From NCBI GenBank assembly GCA_014281115.1, contig JACONQ010000006.1, forward strand, positions 3,348,001-3,412,000: a stretch of 64,000 nucleotides of DNA, given 5' to 3'. The notes below the pieces were generated by a model. The model had not been told where the DNA came from. It worked only from the letters and a program-made list of their open reading frames with translations, and searched no databases. The position numbers were made by a program, and so were the translations under genes. Of the stretch, positions 17,798 through 41,196 are shown piece by piece (the first letter of the stretch is position 1; each line of letters begins with the position of its first letter). The stretch comes from Laburnicola sp. R22_1 (taxonomy: Eukaryota > Ascomycota > Dothideomycetes > Pleosporales > Didymosphaeriaceae).

Positions 17798-19663
17798 ATG
17801 GATCTAATTAAGGCTGCGATAGCAGCTATTAAATCGCAGGAACTAGGAGAAAACTTTTTATACAAATAAGTTGCTAGAGATTATAGTGTTGTTATTTCTA
17901 CACTAACGCGCTAGCATTAACGCGTTACACAGACGCGTACAGATAGGATAGAAAAACAACACAATCTTAACAGCTATTAAGAGGCAGAGCTTCTATAATA
18001 TATTAAACACCTTACTAAACGTGGCCTTCCTTCTATATAGTAGATACTACAAAGCTTTGCTTCTACTATTACTTAAAAGAAGATCTCTTTATTATAGGTT
18101 AATCGCTTTGTATATCGCTACGCTAAATCCTTAATATTATAATAGACAACTAGTATTAATAGGAATTGCTATAAAGCTAATTCTCCTACTAAATATAAGC
18201 TCTACTTTAAGCTTCTATAGCATAAGAATAAGTAGTACTTAATTAAGGCCTAGGATACCTATAATATAGACAAGAAAGGCTTCCTACTTAGCATTACCTT
18301 TTACTTAAAGAGGATCTTTAATAGGCCTCTATATTAGAGCAAGACTATAAGGCAAGCTATTTAGGATAGCAACTATGCATAGATATCGCTTATCGCCTGT
18401 ATTTGCGCTAATAGTTCTGTCCTAGACCTAGCTCTTATCGATTAGACTGCCTCTATAAATATACAATTAAGCTAGGTTAAGAATATTAATTTTTAGCGCT
18501 ATTAGACCTTTATTATAGTGTTAGATTCTAGCTAGTTAAATAATTAGATTAGTCTTATATAGCTATAGTAAGTGTTTAATTACCTTATAAAGGCCAAAGC
18601 TAGACAATTATATTAACTATTAATTATAGATAGCTATAGATCCTATATTACTATAGAGTTTATTAACTTTTATAATTGTAATAGAATTTTACTAGCTATC
18701 TATCTACTTTATTTAACGTATACACTATAGTCTCTTAATATCTATATCTTTAAGTCTCTATTAATAGTATATTTAAATTAGATATTAGCCTTTATAAACA
18801 ATAGCTAGGGGCTTAGCTTAATTGCTAAGAGAGACTTCTTTATATTATTCTAGGATGTCTAGATTAATACTATAAGGTCGCTATTAATACTCCGCGCCTT
18901 TAAGGCTACTAGTATCTTTTTTACTAAATCTAGCAACTATTCTTAAGAGATTTAATTAAGAATTAGATTAGGCTAAGCTATCTAAGCAGTAATTACAAAA
19001 GAGCTCTACCTTAGTATTTAGTGCTTTAGATTAGAGAAAGATTAATTAGCTGCTAAAGGCTTATGCGAATATAGGGGATAGTAATAGAGCCAAGAAGCTA
19101 AGTTAAACTATACACTATATCTCTATATAAGCTTAGCTTATAGAGCATAAAAATAAAGGCCTATAAAAGGCTCTAGCAACTTAAAAGAAGCGCTTAAAGC
19201 AAGGCAGACCTCTGCCTTTTAATTAGCTAGATAAGTATTATAGTAGAGCTATTTTCTAGTTACCTTATAGCGTATAACAGGCGTGCGATTGTTAACACTA
19301 GAAAGATATTAAGGAGTAGCAATTTACAGCTTTAAAAAAGGGAGCGAGTAGAGGCTTATTAGGCTAGCCAGCAGCTTAAGAAAAGGCTTCTCTAGGAGAG
19401 GCGCGTTACGTAGGCAGCAGCCAGAGAGGCGCGCACAAAGGAGAGAGCTGATTAGGCTGCTAAGCGACGCCTCTAGTAGCAGGCTCGCAAGACCTAACAA
19501 CAACTCCAGAAACGTCTTAAAATTGCTAAAAAGGGAAGTTAGAAAGGCTTTAAGACTACTTCTATAGCTACAAAAAGACAGAGCTCTACGCTAGCACCTA
19601 TAGGCGTTAACGAAGCTGCATTAGCTGCGTTAACTCCATTAACACGCAGAGGCCGAATTATCT
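17798..19663 (+). pseudogene. pogo-type transposase relic, heavily RIP-mutated
   Basis: From ATG at 17798 the frame reads recognisably like a Fot/pogo transposase despite many TAG/TAA stops: an N-terminal YTKVARDYSV-like HTH, DTYNIDKKGF where active copies have a Asp-Glu-x-GF motif, LLIIDSYRSYITIEFINF where LLI(V/L)DGHxSH is expected, then PL-rich and coiled C-terminal parts with KKR-rich residues. CpA-to-TpA change explains most stops. The sequence is non-functional. Confidence 0.8.
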
Positions 19664-20048
19664 AAACACTAATTAGATATTAATAATCTAAGTAGCTAGC
19701 AATTATCTATAGGCCTACAAGAGCTCAAATCTAGAAAATCTTATAAGAATATTGTTTGTGGGCGTCTCTATAGCCTCATGCTGCTAGCCGAGCGATCATG
19801 TTGGGGTGTTGCATGAGCTGACGTGTTGCATGCAGAGCTGGCAACAATCGAACCAATCACAACCGATCCCAATATCGGCTATTGCCGATATATTGGCAAT
19901 CACGATTAGCAATATTGGTGCACAGACCAAGCTCAACTTCAATATTTAAACATCTATATTTTTCTATATACAAAGCCTGTCTTAGTTTCGCCTCGTACGG
20001 CTACTTATCCTAGACACCTCGTAAAGGTTCAGGCCTAGGGTCTAGGTA

Positions 20049-20103
20049 CTGTGGACACCCCCCACAGCTGGGTATAGGCAGTTGCTGTAGACATCCCCTA
20101 CAG
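20049..20103. other. two tandem short hairpins near the left hAT end
   Basis: CTGTGG...CCACAG (20049-20067) and CTGTAG...CTACAG (20085-20103) are successive, related stem-loops of 6-bp stems, downstream of the DUF3716-like gene's stop. They may be 3' UTR or subterminal structure; role unknown. Confidence 0.4.
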
Positions 20104-20143
20104 CTAAGAGTGTAGAAATAAAAAAAGCTATATCGTACGTACC

Positions 20144-20772
20144 TTATGCTAAAACAATAGCATTATGGGGCCCAGCCCCAGGCATATCGTCGTCGTCATT
20201 CTCAATCAACAACGGCCGTGCTGCCGACCCATCCCTATCAGGCCCACGAGGAGCCAGGCGCAGAGGTCCACCATTAGGAGCATCATCACCCCCATCTCGT
20301 ACGGAGCAGCGTGCTGCGTGGTCTCTCCACTTGCAGTTGGCACATGCCCCGCCAAAGTGTCCGGCTACCCGGCGGCACTCTGGGAATGGTCGTGGGCCTG
20401 GTACAGCAGTATGGCAGCTGCTGCATTCGGTTGCCACTCCCACACCACGAGATTGTATGAGGATGGCGTTGATGTACGAAGGACGATGCGAGCCTATTTG
20501 ATTGAGTCGTACGCTGCCTCGTACGATCTCCACATCCTGCCCTGGAAGGGCTAAGACTGCTCGTCCTTGCGGACTATGCACATATGGGGCCAACTGCTGC
20601 CCTCCAACACGGAGAATAGGGTTCGCATTCGTACCTGCGAGCTGGGCGGCAACGACGGCGGCGTTGTAGATGACAAGAGCCCTATATAATAGTTAGTCTA
20701 GTACGATAATGAAAGGGGATAGCTGAACAAGTGGCCTGTAGTTGAACATGTAGCAATTGTACAAACTTACAT
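20144..20772 (-). CDS. DUF3716-like cysteine-rich protein carried by the hAT element
   Basis: The start codon is split by an intron: AT at 20772-20771, an intron at 20770-20682 (GTAAGT...ATATAG, 89 bp), then G at 20681. This gives ATGGCTCTTGTC and an uninterrupted 179-residue frame to TAA at 20144. The N-terminus MALVIYNAAVVAAQLAG is alanine-rich. The centre holds a Cys cluster, ECSSCHTAVPGPRPFPECRR, then GHFGGACANCKWRDHAARCS, which matches the pattern of fungal DUF3716 zinc-binding domains (CxxC...GPFxxC...GGxCxNC...RCS). The tail is acidic (LLIENDDDDMPGAG). I infer a nucleic-acid- or protein-binding accessory factor of the transposon. Function is not known for the family. Confidence 0.72.
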
Positions 20773-20824
20773 GGTTGTTGTTGTTGTTGTTGTTACTGTT
20801 GCTGCTGCTGCTGCTGCTGCTGCT
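20773..20824. repeat. GTT/GCT trinucleotide tract in the 5' UTR of the hAT passenger gene
   Basis: Seven GTT units followed by ACTGTT and eight GCT units sit immediately 5' (minus-strand sense: CAGCAG...AACAAC) of the split start codon. Confidence 0.75.
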
Positions 20825-21071
20825 ATTGAGAAGTTAGCTTCGTACAAAGTAAAGGTGGTGTTTTAGCAGGCTGAACAAACTGCTGCTTAGGCTCGTACGA
20901 AAGAAATTGATGTGGTAGTACTTACAACGTGTGTGTGTGTTTAGTAAAGGTGAAGAACCTGCGCAGTTGCCTTTTGACGTCGCTGCCGGCGGGCTTGGCA
21001 CGCCAAGCCCTGCTTGAGGAAGTAACGATATAGTACTAAAACAACAAAGTTTTGGCTCGTACGATAACATA

Positions 21072-23101
21072 CTATTGAAAGTTATCTATAAGCAAGTCTC
21101 CTCTCTTCCAATCCCGCCCACATTCAAGCTGCTCAAGTATAGCAGCCGTTGTTGAAGTTTTGTCCCATGAAACCGTACGACGGCCACCTGAGAAGATTCG
21201 CTCTGGCTTATCACTCATAGATGGTATTGAGAGAACCTCAATTGCCCAAGAGTATAGCTGCGGCCATCGCTGCTTCTGTGTATCCTGCAACCACCACTCA
21301 ATAGCTGAAATTTTAGTATTGTACGAGACTGCTTCATTACAGTAGTTCTCAAATTCATCCTGACTCTGAGGCCGGCTGTGTTTTTCTCTTAGGTTCTGAT
21401 GAAGCTGCTCAAATCTATTGATTGGCTGCTGTTCTGCTTGGTTTGGCACAAGCATAGTATCGTACGAGGAAGAGGTAATACAGTTCTCCCGACGATACTT
21501 CTCCCAAAGAGCAGTAACCCGAAGGGTGTAACTTGTGTCTTTAACCCAGGTCGTACGAGCCTCTGGGTTTAGAATTCGAGCAACTGCGTAGTATGGCGTT
21601 TGGTCAAGCTTTGATATATAGTAATCAAGCTTTGCTTTTGAGTTCTCTACACGAGATTTGAGTTGCTTTAGAGTTTTCTGTTTAAGTTAGTATACTAGAA
21701 TAACCCTTATCGTACGACGTACTAGTGATAGCGCGAAATGCGCTTCAATAATCTCTACCACTTCAAGAACTCGTTCAATTGTTGATTGTTGACCTTCAAG
21801 CCATAGGCTCGCACTGTTGAAAACACCAAGAAAGTTGGCTATCGTACGAAGAAGAGTAATGTCTGAGTTGCTCAAGTCATCTCTTTTGTCAAGCGTTCCT
21901 TGGGTAATATGCTGTTCAGTGTAGTTTCGTACAGCATTAAGAACAAGTGGTTCAAGCGTAGTCTGAAGCATTCGATACCAGCTATTCCATCTCGTACGAT
22001 TGTCAAGCGGAATTGACTTTCCAGCAGCTGCTTTAAACTCGTTCATACGCTGTGGTGAAGCACGTATGTGCACAACGATATTATGGACCTTCCCCATAAC
22101 GCCCATTTTCGTACGAATATTTGTAGCTCTTTCCTTTTCACGCTTCTCATCTAGCTCTTCATCTCTTGCCTCCTCTTCATCGTACAAGCCTATCTCATTC
22201 TCTTCGTTGTTACTTAAGAATAGAAAGGCCTGTACAGTTAGGTTTAGGATATGACCCATACATCGAAGCCGTGAGTGTGTCTGAATCCAGTTTATGTTCT
22301 TTTCAGATGTGAGGTAACTGGCTATCGTACGACATAGTGTGTCGTTTGTAGTTGAGTCATCACCAATAATAACACCAATCTTATCCTCAATTCCATACTC
22401 TTTAAGGACTGGAAGCAGAGCATCCCATTGACTTTGACCACTATGGCCTCGTACGATGCGTAACGCAATAAGAATATTGCGAAAGGAGTCCTGAGCATCA
22501 ACAAAGCTAGCACAGACTCCAAGCAATAGATCGTGACTAGGGGACGTCCAGATGTCAAGCGCAAGGTGGATACGTGTTCGGGACGACTGAAGGCGTTTTC
22601 GTACGATGTCTTTTGCTTGATAAAACCAGGAGGAAACATTCTTTTTGAGTGTATTGTGAGATGTTGGCATAAAGACTAGGCCTTGAGGGTTCAACGCCTG
22701 GACGAAGGCATGGAATTCTGGCCATTCTACACATGAGAATGGAAGCCGTCGTACGATAACCAAGTTAAGAAGCGTTTCGTCAACAACCTCCTGTTTAACC
22801 GTACGCTGAAGGATCTCTTGGTCAAGGTTATCTTTATCGCCAAGCTGGAGGAGGAGCTTCGCGTATAATGAATCCACGGTGTCGGCTGCTATCGTACGAA
22901 TAGCCGAAGTTGTTGTAGGGATTCGAATATTATGAGTTGAACTAAGATGATTTCTCATATTCGTTGTGTTCTGAGCAACGAACTGGCAATGCTTGCACCA
23001 TATCCATTTTGCTTTAGGCTTCTCCTCCTTTTCTTCTACTGTTGGCGTACGACAGTGCGCATGGATAGGAGATGTCTTTCGTGATTTCTTTGTTGAAGGA
23101 A
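21072..23101 (-). CDS. hAT transposase with BED-type zinc finger
   Basis: Two visible exons: about 23101-21723 and 21677-21072, joined in phase 0 by a 45-bp intron (GTACGT donor, TACTAAC branch, CAG). The N-terminus has a BED finger (WIWCKHCQF ... NMRNHLSSTHN). The catalytic core shows LALDIWTSPSHD (first Asp), GVIIGDDSTTNDTLCRTI (second Asp), the RCMGHILNL CxxH motif, and AIEWWLQ (Glu). The C-terminus is the hAT dimerisation domain (WPQLYSWAIEVLSIPSMSDK, PERIFSGGRR). No ATG precedes the BED finger in frame. A further 5' exon is likely, with acceptor TTTCAG at 23104-23102, but I could not define it. The open frame, conserved triad and lack of stops suggest a potentially active enzyme. Confidence 0.88.
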
Positions 23102-23215
23102 CTGAAAGAGTAGACAAGTGTTGGCAGTAGCTCTCCCCAAGTAGCTAGCGTTGTTACAGGGGTTCTACCCCTAGCCTTGCCTCCTTGTTTGGCCAGTGTT
23201 TGACAGGGGGTCTGC

Positions 23216-23244
23216 CCTATCCTCACCTCCACGGTGAGGATAGG
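23216..23244. other. perfect 12-bp stem hairpin upstream of the transposase
   Basis: CCTATCCTCACC, loop TCCAC, then GGTGAGGATAGG. It lies in the hAT right arm, in the region without TCGTACGA copies. It could be a subterminal recognition structure or a 5' UTR hairpin. Confidence 0.5.
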
Positions 23245-23624
23245 ACAACAACTTACAACCAAAATCTTTGACTATCTATTTATTACTGTTTACCGTGTAT
23301 ACACGACCCGACGTGGAACCAACAACAAGGCTTCGCTTTCTTCGGCTAATAGAGACATTTTACTTGTTAATTTCTATCGTACAAAGCAAAATGAAGCAAA
23401 ATTTGCAATGCCAAGCTTTTTTAAACCAATATTGGCAATATAGGCGATATCGGTTGAACCGATATCGATTGGTTGCTGATTGGTTCGCATTTTATTGTTG
23501 CCAGCACTGGTTGCATGAGCTGACGTGTTGCACGGGCTGCCAAGATGCCGTGCCTCACGGACCATATAAACATGTCGCTATTGCGACGCTTTCAAAGCTG
23601 AAACACTTATACAACACGATCACA

Positions 23625-38536: not shown

Positions 38537-39047
38537 CAGTTTCACGGCGCTATAGGAAACCGCACAATGTTCACAATGATGCTCCGACCTCACCCGTACC
38601 GTATACGCAACTCTATCATCATGCTGTGATGCTTGGCAATGAAAGAGACGGATTCTTCGACCTTTTGCACCTGTTTCACGGCGCTATAGGAAACCGCACA
38701 ATGTTCACGACGATGCTCCAACCTCACCCGTACCGTATACGCAACTCTATCATCATGCTGTGATGCTTGGCAATGAAAGAGACGGATTCTTCGACCTTTT
38801 GCACCTGTTTTACGGCGCTATAGGAAACCGCACGATGCTCACGACGATGCTCCGACCTTACTCGTACGCAACTCTATCATCATGCTGTGACGCTTGGCAA
38901 TAAAAGAGACGGATTCTTCGACCTTTTGCACCTGTTTCACGGCGCTATAGGAAACTGCACAATGCTCACGACGATGCTCCGACCTTACTCGTACGCAACT
39001 CTATCATCATGCTGTGACGCTTGGCAATAAAAGAGACGGATTCTTGG
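38537..39047. repeat. tandem satellite, four copies of 134/134/127/~116 bp
   Basis: Copies start at 38537, 38671, 38805 and 38932. Each begins C(T/A)GTTTCACGGCGCTATAGG and contains GCAACTCTATCATCATGCTG and AAGAGACGGATTCTTCG. Copies 3 and 4 share an internal deletion (loss of the ACCGTATAC segment). The array ends about 290 bp upstream of the repeat-precursor gene. Confidence 0.92.
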
Positions 39048-39099
39048 CTGTTGAACCTCGACCTGCAGTTGGGGCAGGCACAGATTGGGGGCACGCGGG

Positions 39100-39336
39100 C
39101 TTGTATAAAGAGGAGACTCATCGCCGGCCATGAGAAAGCATCACAGCTACATTCACTCGCCTTCTCTCCTATACCTCTTCGCATCTCCTCTTTCGCTCAA
39201 TCTGCCGGTCAGATCAGCCTCTCTCACTTTCACTTCAATCGGGTCCGCCTCGCTCACTTTCTATCTTATCCGGCCTTTCCTTTTCGAATAACTTTCCACT
39301 TCCAACCTTTTAATACAATCAACGAAAACATTCAAA
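39100..39336 (+). promoter_or_regulatory. proximal promoter and 5' UTR of the repeat precursor
   Basis: A TATA-like TATAAAG lies at 39104-39110, followed by pyrimidine-rich CTCTCACTTTC and CCTTTCC tracts and an A-rich ACAATCAACGAAAACATTCAAA leader directly before the ATG at 39337, a good fungal translation context. Confidence 0.5.
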
Positions 39337-41196
39337 ATGCGCGCCTCTACCGTCGCTGCCATCCTCGCCTTCACGGCTGGCATGACTTTTGCCGCTCCCG
39401 TCGCCGCTCCCCAGCGCGGCCGTGGTCGCCGGATTGGCGATGCCCTCGAGGGTGTCTCCAACGGTGCTGGAATCGTCGCTGATGGCATCTTAATCAACGA
39501 TGCACTTAGTTCCGACCAGCCTGCTAAGCGCGAACCTCAGCGTGGTCGTGGACGCCGGATTGGCGATGCCCTCGAGGGTGTCTCCAACGGTGCTGGAATC
39601 GTCGCTGATGGCATCTTAATCAACGATGCACTTAGTTCCGACCAGCCTGCTAAGCGCGAACCTCAGCGTGGTCGTGGACGCCGGATTGGCGATGCCCTCG
39701 AGGGTGTCTCCAACGGTGCTGGAATCGTCGCTGATGGCATCTTAATCAACGATGCACTTAGTTCCGACCAGCCTGCTAAGCGCGAACCTCAGCGTGGTCG
39801 TGGACGCCCGATTGGCGATGCCATCGAGGGTGTCTCCAACGGCGCTGGAATTGTCGCTGATGGCATCTTAATTAACGACGCGCTCAATCCTGCTAAGCGC
39901 GAAGCTCGTGGACGCCGCATTGGGGATGCCATCGAGGGTGTCTCCAACGGCGCTGGAATTGTTGCTGATGGCATCTTAATCAACGACGCGCTCAATCCTG
40001 CTAAGCGCGAAGCTCGTGGACGCCGCATTGGGGATGCCATCGAGGGTGTCTCCAATGGCGCTGGAATTGTTGCTGATGGCATCTTAATCAACGACGCGCT
40101 CAATCCTGCTAAGCGCGAAGCTCGTGGACGCCGCATTGGCGATGCCATCGAGGGTGTCTCCAACGGCGCTGGAATTGTTGCTGATGGCATCTTAATCAAC
40201 GACGCGCTCAATCCTGCTAAGCGCGAAGCTCGTGGACGCCGCATTGGGGATGCCATCGAGGGTGTCTCCAATGGCGCTGGAATTGTTGCTGATGGCATCT
40301 TAATCAACGACGCGCTCAATCCTGCTAAGCGCGAAGCTCGTGGACGCCGCATTGGCGATGCCATCGAGGGTGTCTCCAACGGCGCTGGAATTGTTGCTGA
40401 TGGCATCTTAATCAACGACGCGCTCAATCCTGCTAAGCGCGAAGCTGAACCTCAGCGTGGTCGTGGACGCCGCATTGGCGATGCCCTCGAGGATGCCTCT
40501 AACGGCGCCAGCATCATTTCCGACGCTGTTCTTATCAACGACGCTATTAACGCTCCTGAGAAGCGTGAAGCCCAGCGTGGTCGCGGTCGCCGCATTGGCG
40601 ATGCCCTCGAGGGTGCCGCCAACGGCGCCGGCATCATTTCCGACGCTATTCTTATCAACGACGCTATTAACGCTCCTGAGAAGCGTGAAGCCCAGCGTGG
40701 TCGCGGTCGCCGCATTGGTGATGCCCTCGAGGGCACTGCAGATGCTGTTGGAGTGGTTTCAGACGGCCTGCTCATTAACGATATTATTAACGCTCCCGAG
40801 AAGCGTGAAGCCCAGCGTGGTCGCGGTCGCCGCATTGGTGATGCCCTTGAGGGCACTGCAGATGCTGTTGGAGTGGTTTCAGACGGCCTGCTCATTAACG
40901 ATATTATTAACGCTCCCGAGAAGCGTGAAGCCCAGCGTGGTCGCGGTCGCCGCATTGGTGATGCCCTTGAGGGCACTGCAGATGCTGTTGGAGTGGTTTC
41001 AGACGGCCTGCTCATCAACGATATTATTAACGCTCCCGAGAAGCGTGAAGCCCAGCGTGGTCTCAGTGGCTGCATTAGTGTTGCCCTTGAGGGCACTGCA
41101 GACGCTCCCGAGGAGTGTGAAGCTCGTATTGGAATTCCCGGGGCTTCAAACGACCGGCTCATTAACGACGTTGTTAACGCTCCCGAGAAGCGTTGA
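39337..41196 (+). CDS. secreted kexin-processed repeat precursor (KEP/RiPP-like), 15 units
   Basis: Single exon, 619 residues. A signal peptide (MRASTVAAILAFTAGMTFA) is followed by 15 units, each closed by Lys-Arg. Unit ends (residue): 65, 107, 149, 188, then five 36-residue units to 368, then 410, 450, 490, 530, 570 and 619. The unit theme is RGRGRRIGDALEG, then SNGAGIVADGILINDAL, with a spacer and KR. After KR comes EP, EA or EAEP, like the Glu-Ala/Glu-Pro spacers removed by a Ste13-type dipeptidyl peptidase after Kex2 in yeast alpha-factor. Expected products are 32-40-residue peptides with a cationic N-terminus and an amphipathic body; internal GRR sites might be cut too. Unit 15 is degenerate and contains two Cys. 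No UstY-type modifying enzyme is adjacent. Role (signal, surface-active, antimicrobial) is unknown. Confidence 0.9.
   Translation: MRASTVAAILAFTAGMTFAAPVAAPQRGRGRRIGDALEGVSNGAGIVADGILINDALSSDQPAKREPQRGRGRRIGDALEGVSNGAGIVADGILINDALSSDQPAKREPQRGRGRRIGDALEGVSNGAGIVADGILINDALSSDQPAKREPQRGRGRPIGDAIEGVSNGAGIVADGILINDALNPAKREARGRRIGDAIEGVSNGAGIVADGILINDALNPAKREARGRRIGDAIEGVSNGAGIVADGILINDALNPAKREARGRRIGDAIEGVSNGAGIVADGILINDALNPAKREARGRRIGDAIEGVSNGAGIVADGILINDALNPAKREARGRRIGDAIEGVSNGAGIVADGILINDALNPAKREAEPQRGRGRRIGDALEDASNGASIISDAVLINDAINAPEKREAQRGRGRRIGDALEGAANGAGIISDAILINDAINAPEKREAQRGRGRRIGDALEGTADAVGVVSDGLLINDIINAPEKREAQRGRGRRIGDALEGTADAVGVVSDGLLINDIINAPEKREAQRGRGRRIGDALEGTADAVGVVSDGLLINDIINAPEKREAQRGLSGCISVALEGTADAPEECEARIGIPGASNDRLINDVVNAPEKR

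Follow-up and report, generated by a model that had tools for sequence, protein, structure and literature searches.

The 64-kb stretch of DNA analysed here (the window; 64,000 nucleotides of contig JACONQ010000006.1 from the ascomycete Laburnicola sp. R22_1) contains a hAT transposon in which the octamer TCGTACGA, with the core CGTACGA, recurs throughout the transposase gene, including its intron, and the non-coding arms (Table 1). The computations show an excess of this word, a codon choice that goes with it, a site inside the intron, its presence in three unrelated families of transposable elements (TEs), and its co-occurrence with a gene for a DUF3716 protein in two of them.

The hAT element and its octamer array

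All 14 exact copies of TCGTACGA in the window lie within the hAT element, together with 11 one-mismatch sites, and this recount agrees with the preliminary description of the locus, which had been made from the sequence alone. In 100 shuffles of the window the exact octamer occurred 0.78 times on average and at most three times, with none reaching 14, and the dinucleotides of the element itself predict 0.03 octamers. The 63.9-Mb genome contains 1190 octamers (18.6 per Mb; 985 for the word read backwards, as a control), about 200-fold rarer than in the element (about 4 per kb), which rejects a general abundance of the octamer in this genome and bears out the earlier expectation that it would not be equally dense elsewhere. 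The hexamer CGTACG reaches 6.05/kb in the hAT element, and 3.23/kb and 5.91/kb in the pogo-type and copia-type elements described below, against 0.49/kb in a background of 226,588 bases, drawn from loci bearing long terminal repeats (LTRs), from further hAT loci and from the remainder of the window.

The array extends from 19993 to 23384, with a site about every 130-150 bp, and is not confined to the element ends. The spacings quoted in the preliminary description are correct, and the regularity that it pointed out is significant: taking exact and one-mismatch sites together, and merging those within 20 bp, the 24 resulting sites are separated by gaps of 53-210 bp with a coefficient of variation (CV) of 0.243, and none of 20000 random placements was equally regular (P = 0.022 for the 14 exact sites alone). 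A tandem-repeat scan of the window gave no tandem array over the octamer sites, and 10 of the 14 exact sites are located in coding exons.

The element has the features of its class, namely an 8-bp target site duplication, short terminal inverted repeats (TIRs) and a transposase with the C-terminal dimerisation domain PF05699 (Pfam E 1.1e-10). At the transposase N-terminus a CxxC...HxxxxH pattern is visible, with a Pfam zinc-finger match that is sub-threshold only, and PF02892 (BED) is present in a few of the listed transposase relatives. The element boundaries are independently supported by a second copy (C5), which is flanked by a different duplication, TAGAAGGT. The insertion site is a 17-bp tandem repeat, GTTGCATGAGCTGACGT (window 19808-19832 and 23510-23534), and because of this the flanking direct repeat appears longer than the 8-bp duplication. 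The adjoining DNA (about 17800-19800) is AT-rich and gives the impression, on reading, of a decayed transposon mutated by repeat-induced point mutation (RIP).

Five copies of this hAT were found in the 26 contigs of the genome: that of the window and those labelled C1, C5, C6 and C13. The match to C1 lacks the left end, and the C6 and C13 copies are in pieces kilobases apart. All five look damaged, with in-frame stops upstream of the intron (one in C1, eight in C5, one in C6 and 17 in C13) or, in the window copy, a solo LTR that breaks the transposase reading frame. Near-identical copies of this LTR are found elsewhere, several as pairs about 5.7 kb apart; when it is removed, the right-most site of the array stands about 120 bp from its neighbour.

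Table 1. Features of the hAT element and its octamer array (window positions)
Feature	Position	Strand	Remarks
hAT transposon with TCGTACGA array	19833..23509		3677 bp; from TIRs, 8-bp duplication and C5 copy
hAT TIRs			CAGAGCTGGCAACAAT / ATTGTTGCCAGCACTG
Target site duplication, left	19825..19832		GTTGCATG
Target site duplication, right	23510..23517		GTTGCATG
Left TIR and subterminal repeats	19833..19925		ATATTGG, CCGATA
Right TIR and subterminal repeats	23418..23509		CGATATC, CCAATA
DUF3716 (PF12511) ORF	20144..20692	-	candidate array reader; six conserved cysteines
Transposase, last exon	21072..21677	-	PF05699 dimerisation domain
Transposase intron, 45 nt	21722-21678	-	GTACGT donor, TACTAAC branch site; inferred from sequence; contains octamer
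Transposase, first long exon	21723..23144	-	start approximate; above ~23119 is LTR sequence
Solo LTR, ~206 bp	about 23119..23324		does not belong to array; 5-bp duplication ACAAG
One-mismatch TCGTACGG	19993..20000		left-most of array
One-mismatch TCGTACGT	20133..20140
One-mismatch TCGTACGG	20297..20304
One-mismatch site and exact octamer	20507..20526		starting at 20507 and 20519
One-mismatch TAGTACGA	20699..20706
One-mismatch TCGTACAA	20840..20847
Exact octamer	20893..20900
Exact octamer	21057..21064		just past transposase stop
One-mismatch CCGTACGA	21173..21180		Arg-Thr codons
One-mismatch TTGTACGA	21319..21326
Exact octamer	21460..21467		Ser-Tyr frame
Exact octamer	21551..21558		Arg-Thr frame
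Exact octamer	21710..21717		within transposase intron
Exact octamer	21842..21849		Arg-Thr frame
Exact octamer	21992..21999		Arg-Thr frame
Exact octamer	22109..22116		Arg-Thr frame
One-mismatch TCGTACAA	22180..22187
Exact octamer	22325..22332		Arg-Thr frame
Exact octamer	22449..22456		Val-Arg frame
Exact octamer	22599..22606		Val-Arg frame
Exact octamer	22749..22756		Val-Arg frame
Exact octamer	22892..22899		Arg-Thr frame
One-mismatch GCGTACGA	23045..23052
One-mismatch TCGTACAA	23377..23384		right-most; past LTR insertion

Constraint on the DNA across codons and intron

The sites had been described as crossing the exons in two codon frames, giving Arg-Thr and Val-Arg, and both are found, but a third frame, Ser-Tyr, is used at 21460. 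In the transposase, Arg-Thr pairs are written as CGTACG in nine of ten cases and Val-Arg pairs as GTACGA in all four, against 2/59 and 4/74, respectively, in the open reading frames (ORFs) of at least 200 amino acids that lie in the window outside the element, and 2/35 and 1/32 in ORFs of at least 150 amino acids from other TE loci, with near-duplicates removed (Fisher 6e-7 and 8e-5). Codon bias is rejected by both controls. The octamer that had been assigned to the intron donor region is indeed intronic, but its placement at the donor did not hold, as it lies wholly inside the intron.

We then considered the offset of this intronic octamer in relatives of the transposase, which are known as proteins only; 120 of 276 were listed, and 50 could be read, by a fixed pattern, as unspliced tails. 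At codon +2 past the donor codon, the offset of the octamer, Arg-Thr is present in 14 of the 50, against five at all other offsets up to codon 13 combined, in counts that ignore the kinship of the relatives; the 14 have 43-78% identity to the query. Judged from these tails, the intron site is common among the relatives, not universal. Protein constraint may also contribute to the excess of Arg-Thr and to the conservation of the motif dipeptides in relatives: of all dipeptides, Arg-Thr shows the strongest over-representation in each of three sets of hAT relatives (16, 19 and 61 sequences), and the motif dipeptides are conserved at 0.70 vs 0.50 for other dipeptides in 16 close relatives, and at 0.44 vs 0.27 in 17 far ones.

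The related copies keep their sites, as anticipated, with all aligned octamers retained in C1 (14/14) and C6 (12/12), and fewer in the RIP-mutated C5 (10/14) and C13 (4/14). However, the unmutated copies are 99% identical, so the copies alone cannot show conservation beyond codons, which is carried instead by the intron and codon evidence. The DNA evidence is from one genome, and support from other genomes comes from proteins (the named relatives being from Talaromyces, Histoplasma, Blastomyces and Usnea), because no hAT relatives turned up in scans of viral and prokaryotic contigs. A constraint that acts on the DNA, across protein frames, intron and non-coding arms, is supported by the codon choice, the intronic site and the non-coding sites, and on this point the preliminary description was right.

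Other carriers of the word and the DUF3716 gene

A restriction of the array to this hAT family alone is not supported, given two other carriers of the word. A pogo-type transposon (DDE_1; L066), with 13 copies at 98-100%, has five exact octamers and 16 GTACGA/TCGTAC in 2.5 kb, and in the 6.6 kb of a copia-type retroelement (RVT_2; L067, ends approximate) the corresponding counts are 11 and 58. In the pogo element the GTACGA/TCGTAC sites (n = 11) are regularly spaced (CV 0.31, P = 0.001), and the exact, one-mismatch and CGTACG sets show no departure from random spacing (P 0.72, 0.29 and 0.13). The genome has 114 pogo matches, of which 13 are the L066 family and the others are 39-44% identical to L066; for the six of these others that fall in the octamer-listed part of C1, a by-eye comparison found no octamer inside the matched stretch.

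None of 25 other hAT loci (L040-L064; stretches of 3.5-3.9 kb, some short of a whole element, and several from one family) has more than one octamer. Eight of them (L045, L046, L061, L062, L042, L044, L060 and L040) have over-represented words of their own that are family-specific, such as AGTCAGTC, ACTGACTG, ATCAAGTC and CAAGCAAG. Among the eight loci with word positions, which do not include L046, such words form two main clusters about 2.4-3.2 kb apart in seven and one cluster in the eighth; they are apparently subterminal repeats of the classic type, each family having a different one.

Pairs of exact octamers 77-231 bp apart occur in the three TE families, in WD40-type repeats, or at one isolated place. 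Those at 126-bp spacing (G000:C3:80154-81295, C12:4358717-4358976 and others) would encode Ser-Tyr-Asp, and the repeats that carry them, L065 among them, we take to be of WD40 type; their near-identical units suggest recent internal duplication. They were rejected as arrays of the same kind, since they resemble repeats internal to a gene, with codons for Ser-Tyr-Asp. The window itself contains, at 38539-41105, long tandem arrays (unit length 108 to 240 bp), perhaps in repeat-protein genes.

The hAT element also encodes a DUF3716 protein, in which the cysteine spacing is CX2CX12CX10CX2CX8C, a pattern reminiscent of the fungal Zn2Cys6 clusters; each of the six cysteines is conserved in 51 or more of 55 aligned sequences. 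Its AlphaFold model is confident over residues 21-130, a Pfam search of the protein returned no enzymatic domain, and a Blastomyces relative (P0297) has DUF3716 and a GCR1_C domain in one protein. The copia-type element carries a DUF3716 ORF that is 37% identical to that of the hAT (L067 5643-5939, minus strand), antisense and downstream of the long ORF, and DNA similarity with two further copia loci spans it. A profile search of the genome found DUF3716 at 15 places, nine of them stop-free in the domain: four in hAT copies, and five in copia-type ORFs lying 3.6-3.7 kb from the same octamer pair; among these five, the C4 locus is the one that was read from end to end. The six places with stops are the mutated C5 hAT, the mutated copia loci L068 and L069, the decayed L070, and two others. 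The decayed loci L070 and L071 (GC 0.31 and 0.32) have no array, with 0 and 2 GTACGA, and were counted neither way. DUF3716 is, as far as these matches indicate, an accessory gene common to TE classes (hAT and copia), and its co-occurrence with the array in both, together with its cysteine pattern, makes it a plausible candidate reader, as had been proposed.

A possible self-mark and its alternatives

We tentatively propose that TCGTACGA is a predicted binding site in double-stranded DNA, kept at high density over the full length of these TEs, genes included, as a self-mark, with DUF3716 as its most likely reader. From the palindromic form of the tag we infer that a dimeric DNA-binding protein is the most economical reading. 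In such a mechanism a protein with sequence specificity, most probably the six-cysteine DUF3716 that TEs carry, would bind the palindrome as a dimer and coat the element about once per nucleosome length, and this coating would counteract silencing or keep the chromatin open, while the pogo family, with sites and no DUF3716 found, would be a hitch-hiker. Promoter control or end recognition would agree less well with a tag distributed evenly over coding DNA than a coating or chromatin function does. It is also possible, if doubtful, that class I and class II elements share a self-recognition code, written in codons (in the hAT at roughly nucleosome spacing) and read by a DUF3716 that shields its carriers from silencing, with pogo only exploiting the code.

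The word could instead be read by a host DNA-binding protein, such as a transcription, chromatin-boundary or remodelling factor, for which the TEs acquired sites independently in the interest of expression or open chromatin, with DUF3716 unrelated to the array. The occurrence in three TE superfamilies, pogo among them without DUF3716, is in favour of a host reader, which we nevertheless consider rather unlikely, given that the octamer pairs are restricted to the few settings listed above, that coding-wide sites are unusual for promoter-type control, and that every stop-free DUF3716 found is either part of a hAT copy or next to the copia octamer pair. The transposase BED finger had been named as another possible reader, and would bind TCGTACGA element-wide as enlarged subterminal repeats, in line with the words that other hAT families of this genome have of their own, and with Hermes, which in the excerpt of PMC10368747 uses several BED domains at the left end. 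This earlier proposal did not stand up well and is now improbable: the words of the other families lie mainly in two clusters (7/8 loci), as expected of end repeats, the present element has end repeats separate from the array, and the pogo element, with a different transposase, and the copia-type retroelement carry the word as well.

An RNA-level element, UCGUACGA in transcripts that pairs with itself or is recognised by an RNA-binding protein, would agree with the location of most sites in probable transcripts and with an excess of lone half-sites in one orientation with respect to the coding strand (GTACGA 17 vs TCGTAC 9 in the three elements), but this excess is weak and follows in part from the Val-Arg codons. 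Sites are also present in the intron and as close as about 160 bp to each end of the element, and a perfect palindrome is what a DNA-binding dimer would be expected to recognise, so an RNA-level role has little likelihood. That no gap in the hAT exceeds 210 bp would be expected if bound sites blocked self-insertion, but such target immunity does not easily explain why a retroelement and a transposon of an unrelated kind share the word, and an LTR has inserted into the window copy itself; we regard it as very improbable. Finally, the location of most exact hAT sites in coding exons could mean that the array arose incidentally, from codon bias, from base composition or from a process of mutation like RIP, which is scarcely credible in view of the 0.03 octamers expected from dinucleotides against the 14 found, the non-coding and intronic sites, and the absence of the codon choice from window ORFs and other TE loci. 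RIP mutates TCA and TCG here, which destroys the octamer, and a RIP origin was rejected, octamer cytosines in RIPed copies mutating as other TCG sites do or slightly more.

Several results weigh against a self-mark read by DUF3716. Among the relatives, 36 of the 50 read-through tails have no Arg-Thr at the intron offset, several of them above 60% identity (P0005-P0009 and P0012, for example). In the copia element none of the four site sets shows regular spacing (lowest P 0.075), and CGCACG is abundant as well (34, expected 2.9), so its word may be broader than TCGTACGA; a comparison of two copia copies shows the sites retained only slightly more often (CGTACG 8/15, GTACGA 15/24) than other CpG hexamers (293/655). 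The copia octamer pair has no DUF3716 match at three of eight places (C2, C23 and C26), the profile search found no DUF3716 in the pogo family, and PDB sequence and fold searches with the DUF3716 model gave no match. Unlike the arrays of the Arabidopsis VANC system compared below, the hAT array is mostly coding and not tandem. In the mutated copies, octamer cytosines change like other TCG cytosines or slightly above them, and the CpGs of the motif disappear no less often than other CpGs (in L068, for example, 19/44 kept vs 87/138).

The array gives no protection from RIP: RIPed copies lose motif CpGs at least as fast as others, so nothing protects these CpGs in dead copies, and RIP avoidance was rejected as the role of the array. 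The hAT copies C5 and C13 carry RIP-type mutations. At L006, L008 and L068, RIP-type mutation affects TCA and TCG first, then CCA and CCG, and far less GCA, GCG and ACG.

If the proposed self-mark is correct, it would represent a sequence-specific TE self-marking system in fungi, would widen the range of anti-silencing arrays from one superfamily in plants to TEs of three unrelated classes, and would assign a function to DUF3716, which is nearly absent from the full-text literature (searched by name and as PF12511). The array also shows codon choice inside genes being steered by a signal in the DNA, and it supplies a motif that is exact and testable. The literature found for TCGTACGA included none on transposons, judged by titles, and that for CGTACG in fungal transposons none that was relevant, judged by titles or abstract starts.

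Among known systems, HIP1 of cyanobacteria is a highly iterated palindromic octamer that runs through coding DNA genome-wide, whereas TCGTACGA is concentrated in a few TE families. The subterminal repeats of Hermes and Kat1, which serve BED fingers, are likewise short repeated words in hAT elements, but they are placed near the ends in the excerpts of PMC10368747 and PMC4763223, whereas the present array is element-wide and also found in non-hAT TEs. Fungal TE-encoded TET/JBP dioxygenases are, according to the abstract of PMC12730594, an accessory gene in unrelated transposons, proposed to counter methylation-based silencing; the protein here is instead DUF3716, and that abstract mentions no motif array.

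The closest parallel in way of working, with no homology claimed, is to the VANDAL elements of Arabidopsis (Mutator-like), in which a TE is also marked by a dense short word, read there by the TE-borne accessory protein VANC, with DUF3716 the candidate here. In the excerpt of PMC5735166, motif density sets VANC targeting, and an unrelated TE, AT9TSD1, carries the VANC6 motif; our computations likewise give a motif far denser in the target TEs than elsewhere. VANC motifs have a single orientation and lie mainly in non-coding tandem repeats, and the VANC21 motif is rare in other TEs. The word reported here, in contrast, is palindromic, quasi-regular in the hAT, and common to hAT, pogo and copia-type elements.

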